Assembly: GCF_014199615.1 (NCBI RefSeq)
Contig: NZ_JACHOB010000004.1
Coordinates: forward strand, 1-64,000
DNA length: 64,000 nucleotides
From: Parvularcula dongshanensis
GTDB taxonomy: Bacteria > Pseudomonadota > Alphaproteobacteria > Caulobacterales > Parvularculaceae
Direction: 5' to 3'
The translations under genes and the position numbers were made by a program. This document shows positions 42,885-64,000 of the stretch, piece by piece; within the stretch, counting starts at the first letter, position 1, and each line of letters begins with the position of its first letter. Under the pieces are notes generated by a model, which saw only the letters and a program-made list of their open reading frames with translations, was not told the origin of the DNA and made no database searches.

Positions 42885-45845
42885 ATGCCGATCAAGGATG
42901 AAACGCGTACCCGCCCGCACGCGTTGCGCCGCGGACTTTTGACCGCCACCCTTCTGAGCGGCCTGCCTCTCGGCTGGACGGCCGCCGCGCAGGACGCGGA
43001 GCCGACGGTGATCGACGACCAGCCGGTGCCCGAAGACGAGGACGGCGACGTCATCGTCGTCCAAGGCTACCGTGCCGCGCTTCAGGACTCCACCAACGCC
43101 AAGCGCGACGCCAACGGTTTCACCGACACGATCTTCGCCGACGACATCGGCAAGCTGCCGAGCCAGAACCTCGCTGAATCGCTGAACCGCATTCCCGGCG
43201 TGAAGATCAACCGTGACGTGACCGGCGAGGGCCAGCAGATCTCCGTGCGCGGCCTCGGGCCGAGCTTCACCAAGATCGTCCTCAACGGGAACAACATCTT
43301 CACTGCCTCGGACGGCAACCTGACGGGTACGAACTCGAACCGCGAGGTCGACCTCGACGTCTTCCCGGCGGAGCTCTTCTCTTCCCTCGTCGTCAACAAG
43401 ACGCCGATGGCCGATCAGCTCGAAGGCGGAACCTCCGGCTACGTCAACCTGCGCACGAGCAGGCCCTTCGACGCCGAGGGCCAGCGCTTCCGCTTCTCGG
43501 TCGAGGGCGCCTACACCACCATCAACGAGGAGGTGAGCCCGATCGTCTCGGCCATCTACTCGAACACCTGGAACGACAAGTTCGGCATCCTGGCGGGCGT
43601 CGTCGCCTCGCGGCGCGAGTCGCGCGTCGACGGCTACGAGACCGTCGGCTTCTCCGATGGCTGCGTCGCCGACTTCACCGATCCGCCGGCCAACACGACG
43701 TCGAACTGCTTGGACGGCTACATCGGGCGGAACCACTTCCGCTACTCGCCTTACGCCACGGCGGACTACGTCGCGGCGCATCCGGAGCTGAGCCTAGCCG
43801 TCGGGGACCGGATCGATCCCGTCGCGACGTCGGGCCTGACGCAGGACGAACTCGACCGGGGCATCCTGCCCTATCTCGGCCGGGGCATGTACACGATCGG
43901 CGATCGCGACGCGACGAGCGCGCTCGGTTCGGTCCAGTTCCGTCCCTCCGAGGCGATCGACATCGCGATCGACGTTCTTTACGCGGAGACGAAGCGCGAC
44001 TTCGACCGGGTCGAGGCGATGAACTGGGGACGCCGCAACTTCCTCAGCTTGGGCGCGGCGTGGATCCCCGAGGACCTGACGATCGACGGCGATCAGGTGA
44101 TCCGGTCGGGCACGCTCTACAACACGCGCGCCTGGGTCGGCCACCGTGCGTATGAGGAGGACTTCGAGTTCTTCACCGTCATGCCGAGCCTGTCGTGGGA
44201 CGTCTCGGAAGTCTTCCGCATGGACTTGTCCGCGAGCTACTCGGAGTCGGACTTCCGCCGGGACGAGCCCTACTTCAACTTCCTGACTCCTGGCATGACG
44301 GTCGACTTCGCGAACTCGGGCGACGTCGCCACCTTCGACTACTCGCTCGACATCTCGCAGCCGAACGTCGGCTGGGTGTGGAACGACGTTCAGGGCGACC
44401 AGCTCCGCTTCAACCGGAACTTCCGCGACGTCGACACATTGGGCTTCCACGCCGACTTCGATCTCGGCGCCGAGCCCGAGCGGACGGGTGTGCAGTTCGG
44501 CATCCACTACGACGAGGCGACGCGGGACCTCGAGTTCTTCGGCGGCGGGAACAACGACGTCCTCAAGAACGAGTACTTCTTCCCTTCCGACGCCTACGCG
44601 AACATCGAGGACTACCTCCTGCCCTCGCCGATCTCGGACCTGGGCGACGTCTTCGACGAGGACATCGGCTATTCGGGCATCGCCTACCTCGACATCGACC
44701 GGTTCTACGAGGCGATCCGCTACGACGAGTTCGAGCCGACCGCTGCGGCGACGGGCGACCAGTTCGGCCAGGGCGTCGGCGGGATCGAGGAGAAGTATCT
44801 CGGCCTCTACCTGATGGCGAACGTCGAGGCGGACCTTCTCGACCAGCCCCTGCGGATCAATGCGGGCGTGCGTTGGGTCGACACCGATCAGACGCTGACG
44901 AGCCTGGCGGATGAAGGCGAGACCGAGACGCAAGCGAGCTACGCGAAGTTCCTGCCCTCGTTCAGCGCCGTCTACGACGTCACCGACGCGCTCAAACTTC
45001 GTGCCAGCGCCTCGCGGACCATGACGCGGGCGAACCCGGGCGAGATGTACCCGAACTCGGTCTGGACCTCTTCCGGCATCGACACGGCGCGGGCGGGCAA
45101 CCCGAACCTCTCACCCTTCGAATCGGTCAACTTCGATGTCGGCGGCGAGTACTACTTCGGAGAGCTCGGCTATGTCGGGCTCTACTACTTCGACAAGGAG
45201 GTCCGCGGCTTCACCAGGGACGACACGGTCGACGTCCTCTTCGCGAACATCGCCGATTACGGCCTCGACCCGAACGACCTCTCGGAGACGCAGGCAGAAG
45301 CGCTCGTGGCCTGCGGCGGACCGCAGAGCTGCAATGTGCAGGTCAGCACCCGGACCAACGTTCAGGGCACGGCGACGCTCAAGGGGTTCGAGGGCATCTG
45401 GGTGCAGCCGCTCGACTTCCTGCTCGAAGGCTTGGGTTTCAACGCCAGCGCGACGAAGATCGAGCAGGATGCGGACGACCCCGCGGCGATCATCACGGGG
45501 ATCTCCGACTGGACCTACAACGCCACCGGCTACTACGAGAACGAACTCTTCCAGTTCCGCCTGACCTACTATCATCAGGACGGCGCGGTCGCCTCGGGCT
45601 TCCAAGGCTATGACGGCTCGGACGGCCTCCCGGCCCGGCGGATACGGTCGGACCACCGCACGCAGGTCGACTTCTCGGCGATCGTCAACCTGCCCTTCCT
45701 CGAGAACCAGAACGTCGCGCTGACCTTCGACGGTTACAACATCACCAACGAGCCGGTGAGGAACCTCTTCGAGTACGACGATTTGAGCTACGACGTCTTC
45801 TACCCTGGCGCGACCTACACGGTCGGCCTCCGGGGCAGCTTCTAG
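42885..45845 (+). CDS. TonB-dependent receptor, Caulobacter/Xanthomonas carbohydrate type
   Basis: 986 aa. A signal peptide (about 1-36, ending AAAQD) is followed by an acidic TonB-box region (EDEDGDVIVVQGYR), the plug with LPSQNLAESLNRIPGVKI and ISVRGLGPSFTKIVLNG, and a long 22-strand barrel that ends with LRGSF. The pattern SSLVVNKTPMADQLEGGTSGYVNLRTSRPFD is that of the TIGR01782 family used by Caulobacter and Xanthomonas for oligosaccharide uptake. It should import the oligosaccharide feeding the adjacent uronate pathway. A 319-bp AT-richer control region lies upstream. Confidence 0.95.
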   Translation: MPIKDETRTRPHALRRGLLTATLLSGLPLGWTAAAQDAEPTVIDDQPVPEDEDGDVIVVQGYRAALQDSTNAKRDANGFTDTIFADDIGKLPSQNLAESLNRIPGVKINRDVTGEGQQISVRGLGPSFTKIVLNGNNIFTASDGNLTGTNSNREVDLDVFPAELFSSLVVNKTPMADQLEGGTSGYVNLRTSRPFDAEGQRFRFSVEGAYTTINEEVSPIVSAIYSNTWNDKFGILAGVVASRRESRVDGYETVGFSDGCVADFTDPPANTTSNCLDGYIGRNHFRYSPYATADYVAAHPELSLAVGDRIDPVATSGLTQDELDRGILPYLGRGMYTIGDRDATSALGSVQFRPSEAIDIAIDVLYAETKRDFDRVEAMNWGRRNFLSLGAAWIPEDLTIDGDQVIRSGTLYNTRAWVGHRAYEEDFEFFTVMPSLSWDVSEVFRMDLSASYSESDFRRDEPYFNFLTPGMTVDFANSGDVATFDYSLDISQPNVGWVWNDVQGDQLRFNRNFRDVDTLGFHADFDLGAEPERTGVQFGIHYDEATRDLEFFGGGNNDVLKNEYFFPSDAYANIEDYLLPSPISDLGDVFDEDIGYSGIAYLDIDRFYEAIRYDEFEPTAAATGDQFGQGVGGIEEKYLGLYLMANVEADLLDQPLRINAGVRWVDTDQTLTSLADEGETETQASYAKFLPSFSAVYDVTDALKLRASASRTMTRANPGEMYPNSVWTSSGIDTARAGNPNLSPFESVNFDVGGEYYFGELGYVGLYYFDKEVRGFTRDDTVDVLFANIADYGLDPNDLSETQAEALVACGGPQSCNVQVSTRTNVQGTATLKGFEGIWVQPLDFLLEGLGFNASATKIEQDADDPAAIITGISDWTYNATGYYENELFQFRLTYYHQDGAVASGFQGYDGSDGLPARRIRSDHRTQVDFSAIVNLPFLENQNVALTFDGYNITNEPVRNLFEYDDLSYDVFYPGATYTVGLRGSF

Positions 45846-48040: not shown

Positions 48041-48069
48041 TTGACAGCGCGCGGGCGCGCTCACTTAAG
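48041..48069 (+). promoter_or_regulatory. Probable sigma-70 promoter of the uxaC operon
   Basis: TTGACA (48041-48046), 17 bp, then CTTAAG (48064-48069) in the gap between divergent manD and uxaC. The -10 overlaps the 10-bp palindrome CACTTAAGTG (48062-48071), which could be an operator that blocks it. Confidence 0.45.
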
Positions 48070-48136
48070 TGCCCCCATGTCGCGGGCGGCCGGATGCCGG
48101 TCAAGCACCGCAGGAACAAGGTTCGGGAGGACCGTC

Positions 48137-49555
48137 ATGGCCGCACCGCTTCAGCTGCATCCCGACAGGCTCTTTTCCTCCGACGAGACGCAGCGCGGGA
48201 TCGCGCGCCGCCTCTACGCCGAGGTGAAGGACCTGCCGATCATCTCGCCGCACGGGCACACGGATCCGTCCTGGTTCGCGCTGAACGAGCCCTTCCCGGA
48301 CCCAGCGCAGCTTCTGATCGTGCCCGACCACTACGTGTTCCGCATGCTCTACAGCCAGGGCATACCGCTCGAAGCGCTGGGCGTGCCGAGTGTGGACGGC
48401 ACGCCGGTCGAGACCGATGGGCGCAAGATCTGGCACCGCTTCGCCGAGAACTACTTCCTCTTCCGCGGCACGCCTTCGCGCATGTGGCTCGACTGGGTCT
48501 TCGCCGAGGTCTTCGGGCTCGACGTCCTTCTGTCACCTGAGACGGCGGACCTCTACTACGACACGATCGACGCGGCGCTGCGCACGGACGAGTTCCGGCC
48601 CCGCGCCCTCTTCGACCGCTACAAGATGGAAGCGCTCGCGACGACCGAGGGGGCGCTAGACGACCTTGCGCACCACAAGACGATCGCCGCGTCGGGTTGG
48701 GGCGGCCAGGTCATCACGACCTACCGCCCGGACGCGGTCGTCGACCCCGAAATGCCCGGCTTCGCGGACAACGTGCGCAAACTCGGCGAGCTGACGGGCG
48801 AGAACGTCGAGAATTGGGACGGCTACCTCGCCGCGCACAGGACCCGCCGCGCATACTTCCGCGAGGTCGGCGGCGCGACGGCGACCGACCACGGCCACGC
48901 CACGGCGAAGACCCTCGACCTTCCGCGCGCCGAGGCGGAGGCGCTGTTCGGCCGCGTCCTGTCGGGCGACGCGCGGCCCGGCGACGCCGAGGCCTTCCGT
49001 GCGCAGATGCTGACTGAGATGGCGCGCATGTCCGTCGAGGACGGCATGACCATGCAGATCCATCCCGGCGCGCACCGCAATCACAATGAAGGCGTCCTCA
49101 CCCGCTTCGGCCGGGACAAGGGCGGGGACATCCCCGCGCCGACCGAGTACGTGACCGCCCTCAAGCCGCTCCTGAACGCGGTCGGCAACGAGCCGAACCT
49201 CAACGTCATCGTCTTCACGCTGGACGAGGACAGCTACAGCCGCGAGCTCGCACCCTTGGCCGGGCACTACCCCGCCCTCACGCTCGGCCCGCCCTGGTGG
49301 TTCCACGACAGCCCCGAGGGGATGCGAAGGTTCCGGGAACGGACGACCGAGACGGCGGGCTTCTACAACACCGCAGGTTTCAACGACGACACGCGCGCCT
49401 TCCTGTCCATCCCCGCCCGGCACGACGTCGCGCGGCGCATGGACTGCGTCTGGCTCGCCCAGCTCGTCGCCGAGCACCACCTGCCCGAGGACGAGGCGGC
49501 CGAGGTGGCGCACGAGCTCGCCTACGGCCTCGCGAAGAAGGCCTACAGGCTTTGA
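48137..49555 (+). CDS. uxaC: Glucuronate isomerase
   Basis: 472 aa from the ATG at 48137 with GGGAGG about 6 bp upstream. LHPDRLFSSDETQRGIARRLY, ISPHGHTDPSWFA with the metal-binding His pair, and AGFNDDTRAFLSIPARHDVARRMDC are UxaC hallmarks. It converts D-glucuronate to D-fructuronate (and galacturonate to tagaturonate). It is the first gene of uxaC-dctP-dctQ-dctM-uxuB, all overlapping. Confidence 0.97.
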   Translation: MAAPLQLHPDRLFSSDETQRGIARRLYAEVKDLPIISPHGHTDPSWFALNEPFPDPAQLLIVPDHYVFRMLYSQGIPLEALGVPSVDGTPVETDGRKIWHRFAENYFLFRGTPSRMWLDWVFAEVFGLDVLLSPETADLYYDTIDAALRTDEFRPRALFDRYKMEALATTEGALDDLAHHKTIAASGWGGQVITTYRPDAVVDPEMPGFADNVRKLGELTGENVENWDGYLAAHRTRRAYFREVGGATATDHGHATAKTLDLPRAEAEALFGRVLSGDARPGDAEAFRAQMLTEMARMSVEDGMTMQIHPGAHRNHNEGVLTRFGRDKGGDIPAPTEYVTALKPLLNAVGNEPNLNVIVFTLDEDSYSRELAPLAGHYPALTLGPPWWFHDSPEGMRRFRERTTETAGFYNTAGFNDDTRAFLSIPARHDVARRMDCVWLAQLVAEHHLPEDEAAEVAHELAYGLAKKAYRL

Positions 49556-55095: not shown

Positions 55096-55203
55096 TGGTC
55101 GCGCTGTCGGCGCGAGGCCGGCTTGCCGCCGACTTGCCGGAATGCGGACCCGACACTAAACCGGGATACGGGCCCGGGCGCAGGGGCTGTTTCGCGAGTC
55201 GCA

Positions 55204-58047
55204 GTGTCACGATCAGCTCTACCCTCCGCCCGCTTCGGGCGCGCGGCTTGGCGCCGGGCGTTGTTCCGGCGCTTCGGGCTATCCCTTACCGTCCTCGCGG
55301 TCGGCCTCGTCACGACCGCCTTCGTCACCTGGCAGGTCTCCCGCTTCGGCGAGGTCGGCGACCGCGAGCGCCTCGCGCGGCTGATCGACGTGCAGGTCGA
55401 GGCGATCCGTGACCGCCTCAACGCTCAGATCGCGCTGTTGCGGGGCGGGGCCGGCTACTTCGCGGCCACCGACGGGGAGATCACCGAGGACGAATTCGCG
55501 GCCTATGTGAACCGCCTGCGCTTCGAGGACACCTATCCGGGTGCGCAGGGCCTCGGCTACGCGCGCGTGACCGGCGTCCAACCGAGCGGCCGACTGACCT
55601 CCGAGATCGTCTTCCTGGAGCCCAAGGAAGGGCGAAACGAGTCCGCGATCGGCTACGACATGCTTTCCGAGCCGGTGCGGCGAGGGGCGATGCAGCGCGC
55701 TCGCGACCTCGGCGTCGCGTCCATGACGGGTCCGCTCAACCAGGTCCAGACCGACGCCGGCACCTTGCGGGCCGGCTTCATCATCTACGTGCCGGTCTAC
55801 ACCACGCCCGGCGTGCCGAGCAGCCTCGACGCCCGTCGCGCGACGATCCGCGGCTGGGTCTACAGCGCGCTGCGCGCGAACGCCTTCTTCGGCGAAGGCG
55901 TGCTGCGTGGCCGTCCGCCGCGCGAGGTCGCCTTCGCAGTCTATGACGCCTCTCAACAAGAGGTCCCGATCTTCGCTTACGGTGCCCGTGCTCCTTGGGC
56001 CGCAACCACGGTTCGCCGGCTCGAAGTCGGCGGGCGTGAGTGGCTCGTCGCCTTCGCCGCGACGCGCGACTTTCAGCGCAAGGCAGGCCGTCCGTTCCTC
56101 GCGACGATCGCCCTCATCGGCTTCACCGTCACCGTGCTGCTCGCCCGTGCGGCCGATGCGCAGGTTCGCGCTGCCCGCGAGGCCGTCACGGCGCGAGAGG
56201 CGCTCGAAGAGGAGACCGTCCGTCTCGACGCGCTGCGCCGGGCGTCGGCCGCGCTCGCCGCGGAGCTCGACCTTCGACGCCTCGTCGAGCTCGTGGTCGA
56301 CGAGGCGCAGACCCTGACCCGTGCGGCCTACGGCGCCTTCTTCGAGCGGGCAGTGAGCCAGGACGGTGAGCCGATCTGGCGCCTCTACAGCCTTTCCGGT
56401 GCGAAGCGCGAAGACTTCGTTCGCTTCGGCACGCCGCGCGTGACCGACCTCCTCGCGCCGAGCTTCGAGCGCGGTGAGACCGTCCGGTCGGACGATGTCC
56501 TCACCGACGCCCGCTACGGCCGGATGGGCGGCATGCCCAAAGGCCACCTGCCGGTGCGAAGCTACCTCTCGACGCCGGTCGTCTCGAGCTCGGGCCAAGT
56601 CTTCGGCGCGCTTCTCTTCGGACACCCAGAGCCCGCCCGGTTCGGGCATCGGGAAGAGGAACTGATCACCGCCTTCGCGGCTCAGGCGGCGACCGCCCTC
56701 GACAACGCTCAGCTCTTCCGTGATGCGCAGGAAGAGATCGCGCGCCGCAAGCGGGCCGAGATCGAGCTTCAGGACGAACGCCGCGCCGCGGAGATCGAGG
56801 CGGCGGAACGCGCGGCGATCCTCGGCCAGCTCGGCGAGGGAGTGATCGTCACCGACGCGAGCGGACGGATCACCTTCGTCAACGACGCGGCCGCGAGGCT
56901 TCACGGCGTCAGCGAACTGAACGTCGGGCCCGAAGGCTACGTGTCGACCTACGGCATCCTGACGCTCGATGGGCGCCCCTACTCGTCGGAAGAGATGCCG
57001 CTGACGCGTGCGGCCCGCTACGGCGAGAGCATCGCCGACGCACGCTGGCGCATCCGCCAGCCGAACGGCACGGAGGTGCTCGCCATCGGCTCCGCCCAAC
57101 CGATCACCGCCGCTTCGGGTCAACGCATCGGCGCCGTGCTGACCCTACGGGACGATACCGAGCGCCACGCGGCCGAGGAGAGCCTTCGGGCGTGGAGTGA
57201 GCGCCTGGAGGAACGGGTCAAGGCGCGCACCGCGGAGCTCGAGCGGGCGAGGGACAGCCTCGAGATGATCAACCGCGACCTCGAGGCGATCGTTGAGGCA
57301 CGCGTCGCGGACGTGAAGTCGGCGAACGAGGAGGTCCAACGCTTCGCCTACATCGTCAGCCACGACCTGCGCGCGCCGCTCGTCAACATCATGGGCTTCG
57401 CCGGTGAGCTCGAGACCAGCTTCGCAGAAGTCCAGGACACCTTGCCGAAGGCCGACGCCGACAGTTTCGGCGCGGACGTGAAGGAATCGCTCGACTTCAT
57501 CCGTGCGGCCATCTCGAAGATGGACGGGCTGATCAACGCCATCCTGAAGCTCTCGCGCGAGGGGCAGCGCCGTTACACCCCGGTGCCGCTCGACATGACG
57601 ACGCTCGTCCGCACCGCGATCGCGACCCTCCACCACCAGGCAGGCGAGGTCGGCGCGGAGATGAGCGTCGAGGCGCTGCCCGACATCACCTCCGACCGCC
57701 TCGCCGTCGAGCAGATCTTCGCGAACCTCCTCGACAACGCCCTGAAGTACCTCGACGCGGACCGGCGCGGGAAGATCGACGTCTCGGGCCGGATCGACGG
57801 GTCCTTCGCCGTCTTCGAGGTCACGGATAACGGGCGCGGCATCGATCCCAAGGATCACGCCCGGGTCTTCGACCTTTTCCGCCGCTCCGGGCGTCCGGAG
57901 AAGCCGGGCGAGGGCATCGGTCTTGCTTACGTCCGGATGCTGGTCCGTGCGCTCGGTGGCCGTATCAGCTTGTCTTCCGAGCCGGGGGTAGGCACGACGT
58001 TCACCGTCCGCTTGCCTCTCGAATTCGCGGGCGCCACCAGTCAGTAG
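55204..58047 (+). CDS. CHASE-GAF-PAS hybrid-type sensor histidine kinase
   Basis: 947 aa from a GTG at 55204. The start is uncertain: a TTG at 55123 would add 27 residues with odd codons. Order: transmembrane segment (about 23-45), extracytoplasmic CHASE domain (about 60-290), second segment (297-317), GAF (about 347-505), PAS (about 537-655), coiled coil, HisKA with His720 (FAYIVSHDLRAP) and an HATPase domain with NLLDNALKYL, DNGRGID and GEGIGLAYVRML. The GAF has no Cys for bilin attachment. CHASE suggests sensing a small molecule outside the inner membrane. No receiver is fused; two receiver proteins follow directly. Confidence 0.92.
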   Translation: MSRSALPSARFGRAAWRRALFRRFGLSLTVLAVGLVTTAFVTWQVSRFGEVGDRERLARLIDVQVEAIRDRLNAQIALLRGGAGYFAATDGEITEDEFAAYVNRLRFEDTYPGAQGLGYARVTGVQPSGRLTSEIVFLEPKEGRNESAIGYDMLSEPVRRGAMQRARDLGVASMTGPLNQVQTDAGTLRAGFIIYVPVYTTPGVPSSLDARRATIRGWVYSALRANAFFGEGVLRGRPPREVAFAVYDASQQEVPIFAYGARAPWAATTVRRLEVGGREWLVAFAATRDFQRKAGRPFLATIALIGFTVTVLLARAADAQVRAAREAVTAREALEEETVRLDALRRASAALAAELDLRRLVELVVDEAQTLTRAAYGAFFERAVSQDGEPIWRLYSLSGAKREDFVRFGTPRVTDLLAPSFERGETVRSDDVLTDARYGRMGGMPKGHLPVRSYLSTPVVSSSGQVFGALLFGHPEPARFGHREEELITAFAAQAATALDNAQLFRDAQEEIARRKRAEIELQDERRAAEIEAAERAAILGQLGEGVIVTDASGRITFVNDAAARLHGVSELNVGPEGYVSTYGILTLDGRPYSSEEMPLTRAARYGESIADARWRIRQPNGTEVLAIGSAQPITAASGQRIGAVLTLRDDTERHAAEESLRAWSERLEERVKARTAELERARDSLEMINRDLEAIVEARVADVKSANEEVQRFAYIVSHDLRAPLVNIMGFAGELETSFAEVQDTLPKADADSFGADVKESLDFIRAAISKMDGLINAILKLSREGQRRYTPVPLDMTTLVRTAIATLHHQAGEVGAEMSVEALPDITSDRLAVEQIFANLLDNALKYLDADRRGKIDVSGRIDGSFAVFEVTDNGRGIDPKDHARVFDLFRRSGRPEKPGEGIGLAYVRMLVRALGGRISLSSEPGVGTTFTVRLPLEFAGATSQ

Positions 58048-58056
58048 GAGAAGTCC

Positions 58057-58491
58057 ATGATGCCTGTAAGCATCGTCATGGTCGAAGACGATGAGGGCCA
58101 CGCTCGCCTCATCGAACGAAACATCCGCCGTGCTGGCGTTACCAACGACATCCAGGGCTTCACGGACGGGCAGAGCGCGCTCGACTTCCTGCTCGGGCCG
58201 GATGGCAGCGGCTCGGTCAACGCCGGGCGGCAGCTCCTGGTGCTTCTGGACCTCAACCTGCCCGACATGACGGGGATCGACATCCTCGAGAAGATCAAGG
58301 CGAACGACCACACCAAGCTCGCGCCGGTCGTGGTCCTGACGACGACGGACGACGAGGTCGAGATCCAGCGCTGCTACGATGCGGGGGCGAACGCCTACAT
58401 CACCAAGCCCGTCAACTACGAAGGCTTCGCGGACACGATCCGCAACCTCGGCATGTTCTTCTCGATCATCCAGGTGCCGGAGACCGTCTAG
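58057..58491 (+). CDS. Single-domain response regulator, Rcp1-like
   Basis: 144 aa, with AGGAGAAG before the ATG. The acidic pocket (MVEDDEGH), phosphoacceptor Asp65 (LLDLNLPDMTG), Thr switch (VLTTTDD) and Lys (ITKPVNY) are intact. The extra loop after helix 2 (GPDGSGSVNAGRQ) is that of Rcp1-like regulators that partner phytochrome-type kinases. It has no output domain, so it should pass phosphate or act by protein contact. It lies 9 bp after the kinase gene. Confidence 0.95.
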   Translation: MMPVSIVMVEDDEGHARLIERNIRRAGVTNDIQGFTDGQSALDFLLGPDGSGSVNAGRQLLVLLDLNLPDMTGIDILEKIKANDHTKLAPVVVLTTTDDEVEIQRCYDAGANAYITKPVNYEGFADTIRNLGMFFSIIQVPETV

Positions 58492-58492
58492 C

Positions 58493-59539
58493 GTGCCGGA
58501 CAGCCTTCCCTTCGTTCTCTACATCGACGACGACCCCGGGCTTGCCAGCCTCGCGGGCCGCGCGTTGCAGCGCCGAGGCTTCGGCTTCGCGCACGCGGAG
58601 AGCGGAGCGGACGGATTGGCGCGCCTCGGCGCAGGGGGCGTGGACGTGGTCGCGCTCGACCACTTCATGCCGGACGAGACCGGGCTCGACGTGCTGCCGA
58701 AGATCCGCTCGCTGCCCGACGCTCCTCCGGTCGTCTACGTGACGGGATCGGACGACAGCCGGGTGGCGGTCGCAGCGCTCAAGGCGGGGGCCGCCGACTA
58801 CGTCTGGAAAGACGTGAACGGAGAGTACCGGGAGCTTCTCGCGGAATCCATCCTCGCGGTGTTCGAGCAGGAACGCCTGCGCCGCGCCAAGGTCGCCGCC
58901 GAGGCCGAGGTCCGCGTTGCGCGCGACAGGGCGGAGGCCTTGCTCGTCGAGGTCAACCACCGCGTCGCCAACAGCCTTCAACTCGTCTCCTCGCTCATCC
59001 TGCTTCAAGAACGCGCGCTGCCGGAGGACGCCCTCGTCGCGCGGGCCGCCCTCGGTGAGACGGTCGCGCGGATCGAGGCCATCTCCCGCGTGCACCGGCA
59101 CCTCTACACCTCCGAGGACGTCACCAGGATCGACCTCGACGTCTACCTGCGCGAGCTGATCGAGCAGCTTCAGGACACGTCCTGTCCCGAGGGCGGCGTG
59201 ACGCTGAGCTACGCTGCGGTCTCCGAGCTCTACGTGTCCGCCAACGAGGCGGTCTCCTTGGGCGTCATCCTGACCGAGCTCGTCACCAACGCGATCAAGT
59301 ACGCCTATCCGAGCGGCACCGGCGGGGTGCGCATCAACCTCTCTCGCGAGCGGGACGAGATTGCTCTGACCGTCGCCGACGACGGTGTGGGCAGCGCTTC
59401 GGAAGCGGAAGGCGGGGCCAAGGGCACGGGCCTCGGCACCAAGATCATCGGCGCCATGGCGGGGTCGCTCAAGGGACGCATCGTCCACAACCCCGTCGCG
59501 GGCACCAGCGTGACGGTCAGGTTCCGCCACGCCGGTTGA
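58493..59539 (+). CDS. Receiver-HisKA_2 histidine kinase
   Basis: 348 aa from a GTG 1 bp after the previous stop. An N-terminal receiver with Asp56 (DVVALDHFMPDE) is joined by a helix to a HisKA_2 domain with His156 (EVNHRVANSLQLVSSLILLQ) and an HATPase-like domain (ILTELVTNAIKYAYP, DDGVG, GTGLGTKIIGAMA). This arrangement takes phosphate from one kinase and starts another relay; HisKA_2/HWE kinases often feed PhyR in the general stress response. It ends 6 bp from the GH9 gene. Confidence 0.93.
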   Translation: MPDSLPFVLYIDDDPGLASLAGRALQRRGFGFAHAESGADGLARLGAGGVDVVALDHFMPDETGLDVLPKIRSLPDAPPVVYVTGSDDSRVAVAALKAGAADYVWKDVNGEYRELLAESILAVFEQERLRRAKVAAEAEVRVARDRAEALLVEVNHRVANSLQLVSSLILLQERALPEDALVARAALGETVARIEAISRVHRHLYTSEDVTRIDLDVYLRELIEQLQDTSCPEGGVTLSYAAVSELYVSANEAVSLGVILTELVTNAIKYAYPSGTGGVRINLSRERDEIALTVADDGVGSASEAEGGAKGTGLGTKIIGAMAGSLKGRIVHNPVAGTSVTVRFRHAG

Positions 59540-59545
59540 GCCTCG

Positions 59546-62092
59546 TCAGGGTGCGCCCGCCGCGTCCGCCCCTTCGCCCGTCGCGCTCGTCAGGTCGCGC
59601 GCCGCCGCGACCAGCTCGACGTAGGATGCGCCGAGCGGAATGACGTACTCGTTCTCGCCCCAGAAGAACGGCCAGTCCTCCTTGTTCTCGGGGAAGTCGG
59701 GTTTGAGGATCAGGACACCCGGCACCACGCCCCCCGCGATGAAGGAGAAGTCGGCGCGGTTGTTGCCATAGGCGACCTCCTTCGACTTCGCGCCGACGGC
59801 GGAGACGAGGGAGAGGTCGTGACCCGGATGCCGCCCGAGGACGTAGTCGAGGCCCGCGAGGACTTCCTCGGCGCTGACGAGTTCCGGGAAGGCCTTGTGG
59901 ATCTGGTACTGGACGAGGGACTCGTTGACGACGGTGCCCGAGCCCGCCCAGCCGCCGCGGGTGATCCGTACACCGAACGGGTTCTCGGTCTTCGCTTCCT
60001 CCATCTCGACGAGCCAAGCTTCCGACGCCTCGCGCAGCGTCTGACGGAAGGTGTCGGGCATGTCCGGCAGCACGCGGAAGGCCGCGTCGGCGGTAAAGCC
60101 GTAATACGCCTCTGCCTCCGGCCAGAGGCGTATTACGGCCTCTTCGTACTCGTCCTTGCCGGTCGTCGCGAAGAGTTCGGCGGCGGCGAGGAAGCGTTCC
60201 GCCTCGAGCGGGCCGCCCGTCGTGTTGCCGTGGCGGTAGGTATCGGGCTCCTTGCCCTGCTCCTCCGCCCAAGTGTCCTCTGCGATCTTGAGCGCCTTGT
60301 CCGCAAGCTCGTCGTCATAGCCGCGCAGCGCGCGAGAGGCCGCCGCGAGGCCGGCCGAGGAGCCGTAGTTGAGTGCGCTCGCCTTGCTCGTGAACGCCCA
60401 GCGGTCGTCCTTCTTGCCGCTGCGGCCGCGCTTCTCCTCGTCCGGCGACAGCTTCGCGTTGTAGACGAGGCCGTCCGTCTTCGTCACCGCGTCGCCGAGG
60501 TGGGTGTACTGATCGAGGTCGGGCTCGACGATGCCGTGGATGGCGTGGCCGACCGCGTCGAACTGGGCGACGAGCTGCAGCGTGCCGTGCTTGATCTGCT
60601 GCAGCATGTCGGGCTCGCCGTCCGGCGTGTGGAGGTCGACGCGGTGGCGCGGCCAGTCGACCTTGGTCTCGTCGCGATCCGGCGCGAAGGCCTCCCACCC
60701 TGCGACGAGCGAGCGGACCGTACCGTACTGGCTCTGCGTGCGGATGTCGAAGTCGCCCGCGTCGAACCAGCCGCCGACATCGAGGCCGGGGATGTGCTCC
60801 ATCGGCTCGAACTTCGTGTCCGTGGTCGGCCCTTGCGCGTAGAGGTCGTGGTGCTCGTGGTTCACCGGCGCTTGCAGCGCGTCGTCCATGTGCGCCGTGC
60901 CGTGCCAGACCCGGTAGGCCTCGTTGACGAACATGTGGTCCATCTGGACGGGGAAGAAGACGTCCATGGTCGGCTTCCAGGCGTCGTCATAGACGTCGTC
61001 GGCGATCGTGATCGGTGCCGTGCGGTGATCGCCATAGGCGAGGACGTAGAGGCCGGGCTCGGTCACGTCCGAGAAGTCGATGGTCGCGTAGGTATAGCGC
61101 AGGTACTCGCCCCAAGGCTCGACCGGTGCGACCATCGCCTCGGTTTCCGAACCGTCCGCGCCGATCTTCAGGACGCGCGCGCTCTCCTCGGGCGTGTCGT
61201 TCCGGTCGAGCTCGACCACGGCGACCTTATCGCGGTTCGGCGTGTAGCCGACCTGGCTGTGGCTGATGACGGGATCGCGCGTCCAGCCGGGGATCGAGCT
61301 CGCGTCGATCGTCCAGGTCAGCAGCGTGCCCGACTTGCCTTCCGGCAGCACGCTCCTGAGCACGTACCAGCCGTTGCTCGCCTGGTTCCGCCCGTCATAG
61401 AGCAAGATCGGCGCGCCGTCCGAGGTGATGGAGATACGGTCCTCGGGCGAGGCGGGCGCCATCGTGAAGGACTGGGCCGTCGCGATCGCCTCCGGCTCGG
61501 CCATCGCGCCGTCGGGCCGCGCGCCGTCCTCGCGCAGGGTCATGTCGCCGGCGGGATAGCGCGGCAGCATCCCGGCCTCGCCGTCCGCGATGTAGCCCTT
61601 GCCCCAGAAGGCGGAGGGCTGGAACTCGAGGTTGAAGCCGGCCCGCCCCGCGAGGCTGTCCGGCACCGCCTCGTCTGAGAGGACGCTGATCGTCACCGCG
61701 CCGTCGCCGGTCGCTTCGGCCCTGATCGTGTACTCGAAGCCTTCGTCCGGGTAGGACAAGTGCGCCTCGATGACGCCCGCCTCCTCGTCGACCGTGCGCT
61801 CGCCGAACCTTCCGATCGGCTCCCACTGCCCCGGCGTCGCGCTCAGGCGGACGTCGCCGTTCGTGACCACGCGCTGGCCGTGATGGATCACCTCGACGCC
61901 GCTGATCTTCGCGTCGGCGAACAGGCCGTCATACCAGTTGGAGAAGACGAGGACGTTGACGCCGTCGGTCTCGAAGTAGCCCTGATCGGATAGGGTGAGC
62001 GCTGCGTCCTCCTGCGCGAACGTGAGGCTCGGCGCGGCGGCGAGGGCGATCGTGAGAGCGCTAACAGCGGTAAGCAGGGATCGTTTCGGCAT
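59546..62092 (-). CDS. Secreted family 9 glycoside hydrolase
   Basis: 848 aa from the ATG at 62092. A signal peptide (1-26, ending TFAQED) precedes an unassigned beta-rich N-terminal domain (to about 285), a CelD-N/Ig-like domain (HSQVGYTPNRDKVAVVE to PITIADDVY) and the GH9 barrel. The catalytic Asp pair is in GGWFDAGDFDI (about 443-446) and the acid Glu in WGENEYVIP (about 812). GH9 enzymes cleave beta-1,4-glucans and related backbones or act as exo-enzymes. Here it may trim a glucuronate-bearing polysaccharide. The gene contains a 17-bp perfect inverted repeat at 60098-60139. Confidence 0.93.
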   Translation of the reverse strand: MPKRSLLTAVSALTIALAAAPSLTFAQEDAALTLSDQGYFETDGVNVLVFSNWYDGLFADAKISGVEVIHHGQRVVTNGDVRLSATPGQWEPIGRFGERTVDEEAGVIEAHLSYPDEGFEYTIRAEATGDGAVTISVLSDEAVPDSLAGRAGFNLEFQPSAFWGKGYIADGEAGMLPRYPAGDMTLREDGARPDGAMAEPEAIATAQSFTMAPASPEDRISITSDGAPILLYDGRNQASNGWYVLRSVLPEGKSGTLLTWTIDASSIPGWTRDPVISHSQVGYTPNRDKVAVVELDRNDTPEESARVLKIGADGSETEAMVAPVEPWGEYLRYTYATIDFSDVTEPGLYVLAYGDHRTAPITIADDVYDDAWKPTMDVFFPVQMDHMFVNEAYRVWHGTAHMDDALQAPVNHEHHDLYAQGPTTDTKFEPMEHIPGLDVGGWFDAGDFDIRTQSQYGTVRSLVAGWEAFAPDRDETKVDWPRHRVDLHTPDGEPDMLQQIKHGTLQLVAQFDAVGHAIHGIVEPDLDQYTHLGDAVTKTDGLVYNAKLSPDEEKRGRSGKKDDRWAFTSKASALNYGSSAGLAAASRALRGYDDELADKALKIAEDTWAEEQGKEPDTYRHGNTTGGPLEAERFLAAAELFATTGKDEYEEAVIRLWPEAEAYYGFTADAAFRVLPDMPDTFRQTLREASEAWLVEMEEAKTENPFGVRITRGGWAGSGTVVNESLVQYQIHKAFPELVSAEEVLAGLDYVLGRHPGHDLSLVSAVGAKSKEVAYGNNRADFSFIAGGVVPGVLILKPDFPENKEDWPFFWGENEYVIPLGASYVELVAAARDLTSATGEGADAAGAP
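60098..60139. repeat. 17-bp perfect inverted repeat inside the GH9 gene
   Basis: The arms GCCGTAATACGCCTCTG (60098-60114) and its exact complement (60123-60139) flank an 8-bp loop. It is fully in frame in the GH9 coding sequence, where it encodes VIRLW...AEAYYGF. A strong mRNA hairpin is predicted. Confidence 0.9.
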
Positions 62093-62198
62093 CGGTTCCT
62101 CCGGGAGCTTTGCGGCCGCTCGGCGCGACTCTTTCAATTCAGTCCGTAGCCTAGGAGATGGCCGGGGCACCGGCCATAAAAACCCGCAGAGGTTCGGC

Positions 62199-63683
62199 TC
62201 ACCCCTGCGCGGGGCAGTACCGGGCGATGAAGTCCTCATGCGAGGGCAGCTGGCCAAGGGCGCGTTCGACGCTCCGCTCGATGCCGGAGAGGGCGCCCGC
62301 GAGCTGCTCGTCCGTCATCATTCCGGCCATGCGGTGGTGTCCGCCTGGCACGAGGCGTTGTCCGAGCATGACCTGCACCCAAGAGTCGACCTGGAACAGG
62401 TCTTCGGGCCCCTGATAGGCGTAGCCGCTCTCCTCGAAGAGGGCGATCCGCTCGGCGAGGCTGCCTGGGATCTCCATGTTCCGGCAGTGCCGCCAGAAGG
62501 GCGAGTCGTCGCGCTCCGTCGCCCTATAGTGAAGGATGATGAAGTCACGGATGCGCTCCATCTCGACCGCCGCCATCTCGTTGAAGCGGGTCCGCAGGGC
62601 CGAGGCGTCGCCCGAGAACGGAAAGAGCTTGATGAGGCGCGTCACCGCGATCTGGATGAGGTGGATGCTGGTCGACTCGAGGGGCTCGATGAAGCCGCTC
62701 GAAAGGCCCAGCGTGACGCAGTTCTTGTTCCAGGCCTTGCGCCGCCGCCCCGTGACGAAGCGGATCGGGCGCGGCTCGGTCAGCCGTTCCCCGGTCACGG
62801 CGCCGAGAAGACGCGCCTCGGCCGCCTCGTCCTTGAGGAAGCTCGAGCAGTAGACGATGCCGTTGCCAACCCGTTTCTGAAGCGGAATGCGCCAGCGCCA
62901 ACCAGCGTCATGCGCGATCGACCGCGTGTAGGGCACGGGCGGCTCGGTCGCACTCGTCTGCACCGCGATCGCCCGGTCCATGGGCAGCCAGTGCCGCCAG
63001 TCGTCGTAGCCGGTCTTCAGCGTCTCTTCGATCAGGAGGCCACGGAAGCCCGTGCAGTCGAGGAACAGGTCTCCTTCGACCCGCTCGCCGCCTTCGAGCA
63101 CGAGGGCGGTCAGATCGCCGCTCTCGGCGTTCTGCTCGACACGGTCGATCTTCCCTTCGACGCGGGCCACGCCCGCCCCTTCCGAGAGCGTCCTGAGCAG
63201 CTTCGCGTAGGCCGTCGCGTCGAGGTGGAAGGCGTAGTTGAGCCCTCCCTTCTCGTCCGTATACATTTTGCTCTCTTCGGCGGCCCGAAGCTCGAGGCAG
63301 TAGGCACCGAGATCCTTTCCGAGCCCGCGCGCTCTCGCCTCGGCCCAGACCGAGAAGAAGTGGGTCATCCAGGGCGACTTGCCGATCGTGCCGAAGGAGT
63401 GGACGTAGCGGTCGCCTTCGCGTGCCCAGTTCTCGAACGCAATGCCCAGCTTGAACGTGGCCTGTGTGGCGCGCATGAACGCGCGCTCGTCGAGACCGAT
63501 CATGGTGTGGAAGGTCCGCTGCGTCGGGATCGTCGCCTCGCCTACGCCGATCGTGCCGATCTGATCGGACTCGACGAGGGTGATGTCGAGGAGCGGCCCG
63601 AGTTGCTTCGCGAGCGCGGCCGCGGCGACCCAACCCGCCGTGCCGCCGCCGGCGATGACGACTTTGACCTTCGGTTGTTCCAT
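62199..63683 (-). CDS. Flavin-dependent tryptophan halogenase-family protein
   Basis: 494 aa. GGGTAGW (12-18) binds FAD, Lys78 (ATFKLGI) matches the catalytic Lys of PrnA, WRWRIP (about 265-270) is the halogenase signature, and SSGFIEPLESTSIHLIQ holds the conserved Glu. All hallmark residues are present, so real halogenation is possible. Relatives in Caulobacter- and Xanthomonas-type loci lie next to TonB receptors and sugar hydrolases, with no proven substrate. It starts 10 bp after the cupin-like gene and precedes GH9 by 106 bp on the same strand. Confidence 0.94.
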   Translation of the reverse strand: MEQPKVKVVIAGGGTAGWVAAAALAKQLGPLLDITLVESDQIGTIGVGEATIPTQRTFHTMIGLDERAFMRATQATFKLGIAFENWAREGDRYVHSFGTIGKSPWMTHFFSVWAEARARGLGKDLGAYCLELRAAEESKMYTDEKGGLNYAFHLDATAYAKLLRTLSEGAGVARVEGKIDRVEQNAESGDLTALVLEGGERVEGDLFLDCTGFRGLLIEETLKTGYDDWRHWLPMDRAIAVQTSATEPPVPYTRSIAHDAGWRWRIPLQKRVGNGIVYCSSFLKDEAAEARLLGAVTGERLTEPRPIRFVTGRRRKAWNKNCVTLGLSSGFIEPLESTSIHLIQIAVTRLIKLFPFSGDASALRTRFNEMAAVEMERIRDFIILHYRATERDDSPFWRHCRNMEIPGSLAERIALFEESGYAYQGPEDLFQVDSWVQVMLGQRLVPGGHHRMAGMMTDEQLAGALSGIERSVERALGQLPSHEDFIARYCPAQG

Positions 63684-63693
63684 TCCTCGGCCC

Positions 63694-64000
63694 CTAGCGG
63701 TTCAGCTTGGCGAGGAGCGCCCGCCGCAGGCGGCGCGCCGTTCCTTCGTCCATCGGCCCCAACGGCCCCCTGGCGCCTTCGGGTAGGTGCGCGCCCGCGC
63801 GCTCGGCCGGTCCGAACACGTAGTAGTCGAACAGCGCCTGCCACGCCCTCTTCTCCGCTTCCGGACGGTCGCGCAGGCTGAGAAGGCCGTGCAGCAGCGT
63901 GTTCATCGGCGTGTCCATGTAGGCGGGCACGGCGTTCCACCAGTAGTTCACGAGCACGTTGAAGTCGTCGAGCGCCTCGACGTGGTGCCACCACATGGCG
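63694..64000 (-). CDS. JmjC/cupin-like protein, C-terminal fragment at the window edge
   Basis: The last 102 codons or so of a gene that continues past the window end. WWHHVEALDDFNVLVNYWWN is the C-terminal signature of cupin_8/JmjC-like proteins that regularly sit beside tryptophan-halogenase genes in carbohydrate loci; the two His may be metal ligands. The tail is helical (EGTARRLRRALLAKLNR). It is upstream of the halogenase in the same unit. The ATG-like codon at 63996 is internal, not the start. Confidence 0.82.
   Translation of the reverse strand, partial: AMWWHHVEALDDFNVLVNYWWNAVPAYMDTPMNTLLHGLLSLRDRPEAEKRAWQALFDYYVFGPAERAGAHLPEGARGPLGPMDEGTARRLRRALLAKLNR

Follow-up and report, generated by a model that had tools for sequence, protein, structure and literature searches.

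A predicted flavin-dependent halogenase and a Cupin_8 oxygenase encoded with SapC beside TonB-dependent receptors in Parvularcula dongshanensis and other proteobacteria

Organization of the locus

The stretch of DNA analysed here (64,000 nucleotides, hereafter the window) forms the beginning of contig 4 in the 3.13 Mb genome of Parvularcula dongshanensis. At its far end lie, all on the minus strand, a gene for a glycoside hydrolase of family 9 (GH9), a gene for a BrvH-like flavin-dependent halogenase, and the end of a gene of the Cupin_8 family. The initial annotation, which had read here a cupin-like fragment, a halogenase with its hallmark residues and a secreted-type GH9 enzyme in sequence on one strand, is confirmed by the open reading frames (ORFs) found at this position, by profile matches and by motifs (Table 1).

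The reading was extended beyond the end of the window as stretch L009. There the gene order is TonB-dependent receptor (TBDR), SapC, Cupin_8, halogenase, almost without gaps: the receptor and SapC genes are separated by 21 bp and the cupin and halogenase genes by 10 bp, and the SapC and cupin genes touch or overlap by ~11 bp, depending on the start codon. The genes for the TBDR, SapC, a predicted JmjC-type Fe(II)/2-oxoglutarate (2OG) oxygenase and the BrvH-like halogenase form a single, nearly continuous unit. Variants included, the set is found repeatedly beside one TBDR family in alpha- and gammaproteobacteria. The operon receptor matches TIGR01782 with 654.9 bits (curated cut-off 310) and SapC matches PF07277 with 230 bits (cut-off 28.9). 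The cupin piece inside the window comprises 101 aa; its first 25 residues align with the end of the Cupin_8 profile (29.5 bits), and the whole gene reaches 240 bits.

Table 1. Features of the locus and of related loci; positions refer to the window unless another stretch or the contig is given
Feature	Position or loci	Strand	Basis
GH9 glycoside hydrolase with CelD_N Ig-like domain and export-signal-like N-terminus	59546..62092	-	PF00759 60 bits, PF02927 33 bits
Hairpin resembling a terminator, with 9 pairs and a T-rich tail, at the stop codon of the halogenase gene and ahead of GH9	62185..62209 (L009 4210-4186)	-	terminator scan
BrvH-like flavin-dependent halogenase, predicted, 494 aa	62199..63683	-	PF04820 620.6 bits; motifs, Lys78 and Glu333
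Cupin_8 (JMJD5/FIH-like) Fe(II)/2OG oxygenase gene, predicted, 3' part	63694..64000	-	profile, triad, model of a relative
Whole Cupin_8 gene, start codon uncertain	L009 5695-6747 (to ~64746 of the contig)	-	240 bits
SapC, beyond the window	contig 64748-65617	-	PF07277 230 bits
Operon TBDR, beyond the window	contig 65639-68935 (ORF limits)	-	TIGR01782 654.9 bits
Second TIGR01782 receptor of the window (contrast case)	42885..45845	+	no halogenase within 10 kb
Halogenase arrays with an inactive-looking second copy	L010, L011, L012, L042, L052, L058, L061, L068, L097, L118, L155, L160, L162, L163, L164, L168, L169, L170		
DUF6445 genes beside halogenases	L144 9495-10178; L231 9457-10173		
Loci of a second halogenase subfamily	L036, L053, L063, L074, L138, L139, L143		

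Predicted proteins of the unit

The halogenase matches PF04820 with 620.6 bits (cut-off 21) over profile positions 1–457 of 458, and carries GGGTAGW at residue 12, Lys78, WRWRIP at residue 262 and Glu333 within FIEPLES. The GxGxxG FAD motif, the catalytic Lys and Glu, and WxWxIP are the hallmarks of flavin halogenases. Judged by these motifs, the protein is a member of the flavin-dependent halogenase family with its catalytic residues in place, and halogenation is the predicted activity. The closest solved halogenases are 6y1w (590 bits), which we take to be the Xanthomonas enzyme Xcc4156, 9luq (553 bits) and BrvH (6frl, 431 bits); LooH reaches 285 bits, and chains named tryptophan 5-, 6- or 7-halogenase, PrnA or RebH at most 279 bits. 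Both 6y1w and BrvH belong to the same family, have the catalytic Lys and Glu, and align over nearly the full length. The alignment with BrvH is ungapped across residues 405–492, which span the position of the BrvH short loop. A long substrate-covering loop of the RebH type (RebH residues 440–467, PMC5945002) appears to be absent, as judged indirectly from this ungapped alignment, the RebH alignment itself stopping at RebH residue 466.

According to the available passages of the BrvH study, the enzyme has a short loop and a solvent-open site, for which its authors suggested larger substrates, and it brominates indole weakly, indole being perhaps not the natural substrate (PMC5945002). Those passages give neither a gene context nor a natural substrate for BrvH. 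They liken the BrvH site to that of the peptide halogenase MibH of the lanthipeptide NAI-107, which halogenates tryptophan within a peptide (PMC5945002). MibH serves an antibiotic pathway, unlike the receptor-linked halogenase of the window. We know of no receptor, SapC or JmjC partner of MibH.

Another relative of the window halogenase, at 177 bits, is 6qgm (chain named VirX1), presumably a phage halogenase. Halogenase transcripts have been assigned to phages in the available part of PMC11337851. As phages use outer-membrane receptors, it can be asked whether a phage halogenase is linked to receptor modification.

Among solved structures, FIH and JMJD5 come closest to the Cupin_8 protein in sequence. 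The metal triad H174, D176 and H258 (HxD..H) is invariant in 34 of 34 Cupin_8 proteins, and all 34 have Arg189 at the position of FIH Lys214, which we take to be the 2OG-binding lysine. A model of the relative encoded at locus L132 (not the window's own protein; pLDDT 86.4) matches JMJD5 with a Z score of 26.1 (2.5 Å, 231 residues), TYW5 with 24.9 and FIH with 23.4, and its fold is also close to JMJD7. By profile, modelled fold and triad, the Cupin_8 protein is a JmjC-type Fe(II)/2OG oxygenase, with protein hydroxylation as the predicted activity. The fold and the triad are shared with FIH and JMJD5, whereas FIH has a lysine in place of the invariant Arg, and the substrates of FIH and JMJD5 are eukaryotic.

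Sequence searches with SapC reached no solved protein at an E value below 0.26. For the SapC of L132 the model is confident (pLDDT 87.6); compared with the PDB, 0 of 386 listed Foldseek matches have E ≤ 0.001 and 0 of 996 VIA-align matches have Z ≥ 2, which is no proof of a new fold. All 60 genomes of the order encode SapC, but just 15 of its 80 copies are found within 6 kb of a halogenase, which argues for another role of the protein as well. One copy away from receptors is found on contig 6 of the window's genome (L123, 9570–10379).

Export-signal-like N-termini, marked by hydropathy, are present in 0 of 34 cupin proteins, 3% of 30 SapC proteins, 7% of 245 halogenases and 61% of 113 receptors; the scan is crude, since just 61% of the receptors pass it.

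Conservation of the gene set

The gene set was followed in 60 genomes of the window's order (the order set) and at 146 halogenase loci, 89 from the order set and 57 named. At least two of the named loci duplicate order-set loci (L151 = L034, L183 = L119), L159 and L167 overlap, and the named loci were searched with three seeds more than the order set. A halogenase of at least 500 bits is called full-strength. Our halogenase list covers 33 of the 60 genomes; it leaves out two G017 rows (44.7 and 33.2 bits), rows below 23 bits save one of G054, and unlisted rows. Over all matches, 40 of the 60 genomes have a hit at E ≤ 0.001, and in 37 a hit exceeds the cut-off. Receptor counts refer to the 150 listed of 165 TIGR01782 matches, and Fisher tests treat the genomes as independent, ignoring relatedness.

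The comparison of gene neighbourhoods proposed in the initial annotation reveals a strong tie of the halogenase clade to receptors, and a tie to the cupin gene for part of the family. Of 105 full-strength halogenases, 87 have a listed TIGR01782 receptor at a distance of at most 10 kb, against ~2% expected by chance, given 2.75 such receptors per genome; an unlinked clade, which would have spoken against the initial proposal, is not what is seen. The numbers of halogenases and receptors per genome are correlated (Spearman 0.71 over the 60 genomes). In the window's genome, 12 full halogenase genes occupy 6 loci, every one adjoining a TIGR01782 receptor; 6 of the genome's 9 receptors of this type have a halogenase, and its 3 Cupin_8 genes are all located at such loci. 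These 12 genes, the upstream SapC and receptor genes, and the arrays with an inactive-looking copy (below) were outside the view of the initial annotation.

Cupin_8 (E ≤ 1e-20) is found in 20 of the 33 genomes on the halogenase list and in 0 of the 27 others (Fisher 1.5e-7, relatedness ignored), and 22 of 31 Cupin_8 genes are within 10 kb of a halogenase. By our seeds, the 146 halogenase loci have a receptor at 111, SapC at 29 and a cupin at 34, and SapC, cupin and halogenase are contiguous in this order at 20. The named set covers alpha-, beta- and gammaproteobacteria; the contiguous trio occurs in alpha- and gammaproteobacteria, and the pair of receptor and halogenase also in betaproteobacteria. 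In some loci with the window's kind of receptor, a second halogenase subfamily directly follows the receptor, before SapC and/or the cupin gene; elsewhere it stands alone, without a receptor.

Loci with a TonB receptor and a 'tryptophan halogenase' were reportedly noted in work on Xanthomonas, Caulobacter or Shewanella, so the linkage is not claimed here as unpublished. No description of the set of receptor, SapC, cupin and halogenase was found in the literature titles or abstract openings searched. The carbohydrate-utilization TBDR loci of Xanthomonas and others place a receptor beside glycoside hydrolases and sugar transporters, as here, whereas the halogenase/oxygenase cassette is extra; in the available part of PMC1790865, which describes such loci, the terms halogenase, SapC and Pass1 do not occur, and a term search of the available part of PMC2996990 did not find halogenase. 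The only matches naming both 'tryptophan halogenase' and 'TonB-dependent receptor' were PMC11337851 (phage and Colwellia halogenase transcripts) and PMC3377617 (PrnA), neither of which describes the linkage in the parts available.

Receptor clades and candidate tryptophans

A FastTree tree was built from 109 halogenase-linked and 42 unlinked receptors. For the latter, 40 of 89 were chosen (every second one), of which 38 had an ORF of at least 750 aa, and four of the window's own genome were added; one unlinked gene is counted twice (L122 = L219). Halogenase linkage follows the receptor clades, with 9 label changes on the tree. Four mostly linked clades, types I–IV (support 0.98–1.0), hold 107 linked receptors among 113 rows, and only 2 of the remaining 38 are linked. 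Type I, the kind found in the window, comprises 33 receptors, with SapC at 28 loci and a cupin at 25. SapC is found at none of the loci of types II–IV, where the cupin is present at 7 of 28, 1 of 34 and 0 of 12, respectively. Types I and II, which are not sisters in the tree, account for 32 of 33 cupin-bearing receptor rows. The contrast receptor of the window, near the uronate genes, falls in the mostly unlinked part of the tree.

With respect to possible modification sites, W603 (numbering of the L009 ORF) is present in 94% of type I and 100% of type II receptors and in 0–5% of the other groups. W603, W417 and W1019 are regarded as candidate sites only. A single-sequence search of the PDB returned no receptor homologue at E ≤ 0.001, and hence no structure onto which to map W603.

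Halogenase arrays

Both the Lys and the Glu are kept in 225 of 245 halogenase-like proteins. Two of the rest are truncated, and 18 (330–539 aa) are without Lys (6), Glu (7) or both (5). All 18 occupy the second position in same-strand arrays of three or four halogenase genes, and such an inactive-looking copy is present in 18 of 19 arrays (the exception being L038), in the window's order and in gammaproteobacteria. In the halogenase tree, the inactive-looking copies cluster (0.87) and the first-position copies fall into a single clade with 19 members (0.93), while the last-position copies do not form one clade; the tree was made with FastTree only, and long-branch attraction could group fast-evolving array copies. 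Since both clades mix rows of the order set with gammaproteobacterial rows, the array layout is probably old.

The identities range within 28–60% over seven pairs of inactive-looking copies and 57–81% over five active pairs, all of the latter from locus pairs that also yielded an inactive-looking pair. The inactive-looking copies thus diverge faster: between L164 and L169, for example, they share 57% identity and the first copies 81%. Identity alone was used, dS being saturated or uncomputable for most pairs. The inactive-looking copy may be a non-catalytic partner subunit; the alternative is relaxed drift.

A different chemistry of the halogenase-like protein has to be weighed at this point. 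QhpG is a halogenase-related flavin monooxygenase that dihydroxylates tryptophan in a protein bound for the periplasm, and the halogenase-like protein could likewise have given up halogenation and hydroxylate a protein tryptophan, the JmjC enzyme then being another hydroxylase beside it. The QhpG profile does match the window protein (29.6 bits) and an inactive-looking array copy (34.4 bits), but weakly, far under the NCBIfam equivalog cut-off of 240, and the prevalence of both Lys and Glu, hallmarks of halogenases, speaks against a hydroxylase. We consider this alternative improbable.

A second oxygenase-like family

At the Shewanella locus L144, which is without a cupin, the halogenase is followed by a DUF6445 gene. 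The HxD, a distal His and an Arg are invariant in 18 of 18 DUF6445 rows (16 genes). HxD..H..R is the pattern of Fe/2OG oxygenases, and by this residue pattern DUF6445 is an oxygenase-like family; no solved relative was found up to E 10. DUF6445 is present at 16 of 112 halogenase loci without a cupin and at 2 of 34 with one, a small difference in which two loci are counted twice. The genome counts rest on the strong matches, 21 of the 26 listed for the 60 genomes. Of these 21, 11 are within 10 kb of a halogenase, and 17 of 19 genomes with DUF6445 have a halogenase. The window's genome has no DUF6445 match. In two genomes (G033, G040) at most 300 bp separate DUF6445 from a Cupin_8 gene. Cupin_8 or strong DUF6445 is found in 26 of 30 genomes with a full-strength halogenase and in 2 of 30 others. 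Among nine genera variable for the full-strength halogenase, eight hold both genomes with halogenase and oxygenase and genomes with neither, genus g6 being the exception.

These associations bear on a second alternative, namely that the enzymes merely ride in a shared regulated operon and serve an unrelated oxidative or halide-related function, without chemical service to the receptor. Such a view would accommodate the halogenases found away from receptors, the general occurrence of SapC with few copies near a halogenase, and an annotated instance of the gene set that adjoins type VI secretion genes; it is harder to reconcile with a linkage preserved across classes, with an old array layout, and with two different oxygenase families accompanying the halogenase. 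The probability that we assign to it is low.

Neighbouring genes

The GH9 protein starts with the ATG at 62092 and has a hydrophobic N-terminus. Its catalytic domain exceeds the PF00759 cut-off of 27.7 (60 bits), with 33 bits for CelD_N, and it has the motifs GGWFDAGD and GENEYV, presumably the carriers of the catalytic Asp and Glu of GH9. The gap between the halogenase and GH9 genes is 106 bp, with the 9-pair terminator-like stem at the halogenase stop. The stretch has 7 terminator-like sites against 5.4 ± 2.7 expected in shuffles, so the hairpin is weak evidence alone and only its position favours it. For 43 genes neighbouring other type I loci, 25 of 66 Pfam families were shown, and GH9 is absent from these 25; GH3, GH67 and GH36, GH16 and GH5, and GH43 occur around halogenase loci instead. 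As a core part, GH9 was therefore rejected, against its inclusion in the unit by the initial annotation; it is a locus-specific neighbour outside the recurrent core.

For the uronate pathway, which the same annotation had set beside the unit, no tie to the halogenase was found either. The UxaC match (48041–48540, 36.5 bits, partial ORF) is on the opposite strand, behind plus-strand genes (55123–59539, between the uronate gene and GH9) that, read by eye, have the look of a sensor kinase and response regulators. On the other side, beyond the operon receptor, lie a glutathione S-transferase-like gene and then a GH35/GH42-like gene and a carbohydrate esterase.

Sugar enzymes surround many of the halogenase loci. 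On a plasmid of Sphingobium sp. RAC03, the receptor, SapC, cupin-like and halogenase genes are accompanied by GH16, LacI, MFS, GH3 and two GH43 genes. On a plasmid of Sphingomonas parapaucimobilis the four genes stand beside type VI secretion genes, a plasmid of Sphingomonas sp. R1 has the set without the cupin, and one of Catenovulum adriaticum has the receptor, the halogenase and DUF6445.

The sugar-degrading genes near many loci are consistent with a third alternative, in which the enzymes act on a small aromatic molecule and not on a protein: a glycan-linked phenolic (e.g. hydroxycinnamate) or an aromatic ligand that is made and secreted. Known relatives halogenate free indole or tryptophan, BrvH itself acting, weakly, on indole in the passages cited above (PMC5945002). 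However, 12 halogenase genes at 6 receptors in one genome exceed the need of a single detoxification or ligand pathway, the partner oxygenase is of the protein-hydroxylase type, and no natural-product assembly enzyme was recognised in the 25 of 66 families shown for the 43 neighbours. A small-molecule substrate is regarded as unlikely.

Proposed function

The reading that we favour, tentatively and with somewhat less than even confidence, is a cytoplasmic protein-modification cassette that most likely acts on the partner receptor. Modification of a polypeptide in the cytoplasm, most likely the receptor, is suggested by the few export signals, the open-type halogenase site, the protein-hydroxylase type of the partner enzyme, and the position of the genes beside the receptor and not beside one sugar pathway. 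Both enzymes would work on a newly made receptor before export. The halogenase, with FADH2, O2 and halide, would halogenate an exposed aromatic side chain, or oxidise it by the same flavin chemistry, and the oxygenase would hydroxylate a different residue. SapC may hold or deliver the substrate, and in the arrays the second, inactive-looking halogenase may act as a non-catalytic partner subunit. For receptors that take up oligosaccharides, such a modification would adjust the binding of ligands or the assembly of the receptor. The role on a protein such as the receptor, suggested in the initial annotation, is plausible; the involvement of GH9 and uronate genes in it is unsupported.

Several observations weigh against this proposal. 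Linkage alone does not make the receptor the substrate, and a ligand or another envelope protein fits equally; the cassette is a prediction from genes and sequences. As linkage follows the receptor clades, the conserved tryptophans may reflect ancestry alone, and the W603 stretch aligns poorly, its contexts differing between types I and II. The tRNA hydroxylase TYW5 resembles the oxygenase fold just as closely (Z 24.9). There is no listed receptor within 10 kb of 18 of the 105 full-strength halogenases, and from the receptor side only 61 of the 150 listed have a halogenase within that distance. A cupin is missing at 112 of the 146 halogenase loci, 12 of the 57 named loci show no receptor by our seeds, and halogenase subfamily B is mostly without one (18 of 26). 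Four genomes (G007, G008, G012, G035) have a full-strength halogenase with neither oxygenase, and two (G036, G041) have DUF6445 without a full-strength halogenase. The Sphingomonas parapaucimobilis set has no adjoining sugar genes.

Implications

In its most general form, the proposal is that many proteobacteria finish their sugar-importing TonB receptors before export, an aromatic residue (e.g. tryptophan) being halogenated and another residue hydroxylated, by the halogenase and by one of two unrelated oxygenases, Cupin_8 or DUF6445, with SapC as a handler in one branch and an inactive halogenase partner in the arrays. In this breadth it is rather doubtful; if true, it would be, to our knowledge, the first receptor-specific protein halogenation system.

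Many bacterial genes are annotated as 'tryptophan halogenases' with no product known, and 91 plasmid records alone match the window halogenase. For the present clade, the tie to a receptor, an FIH/JMJD5-like oxygenase and SapC gives a short list of candidate substrates. Modification of the receptor, if true, would represent a new type of maturation for outer-membrane proteins and a new way of finishing a nutrient receptor.

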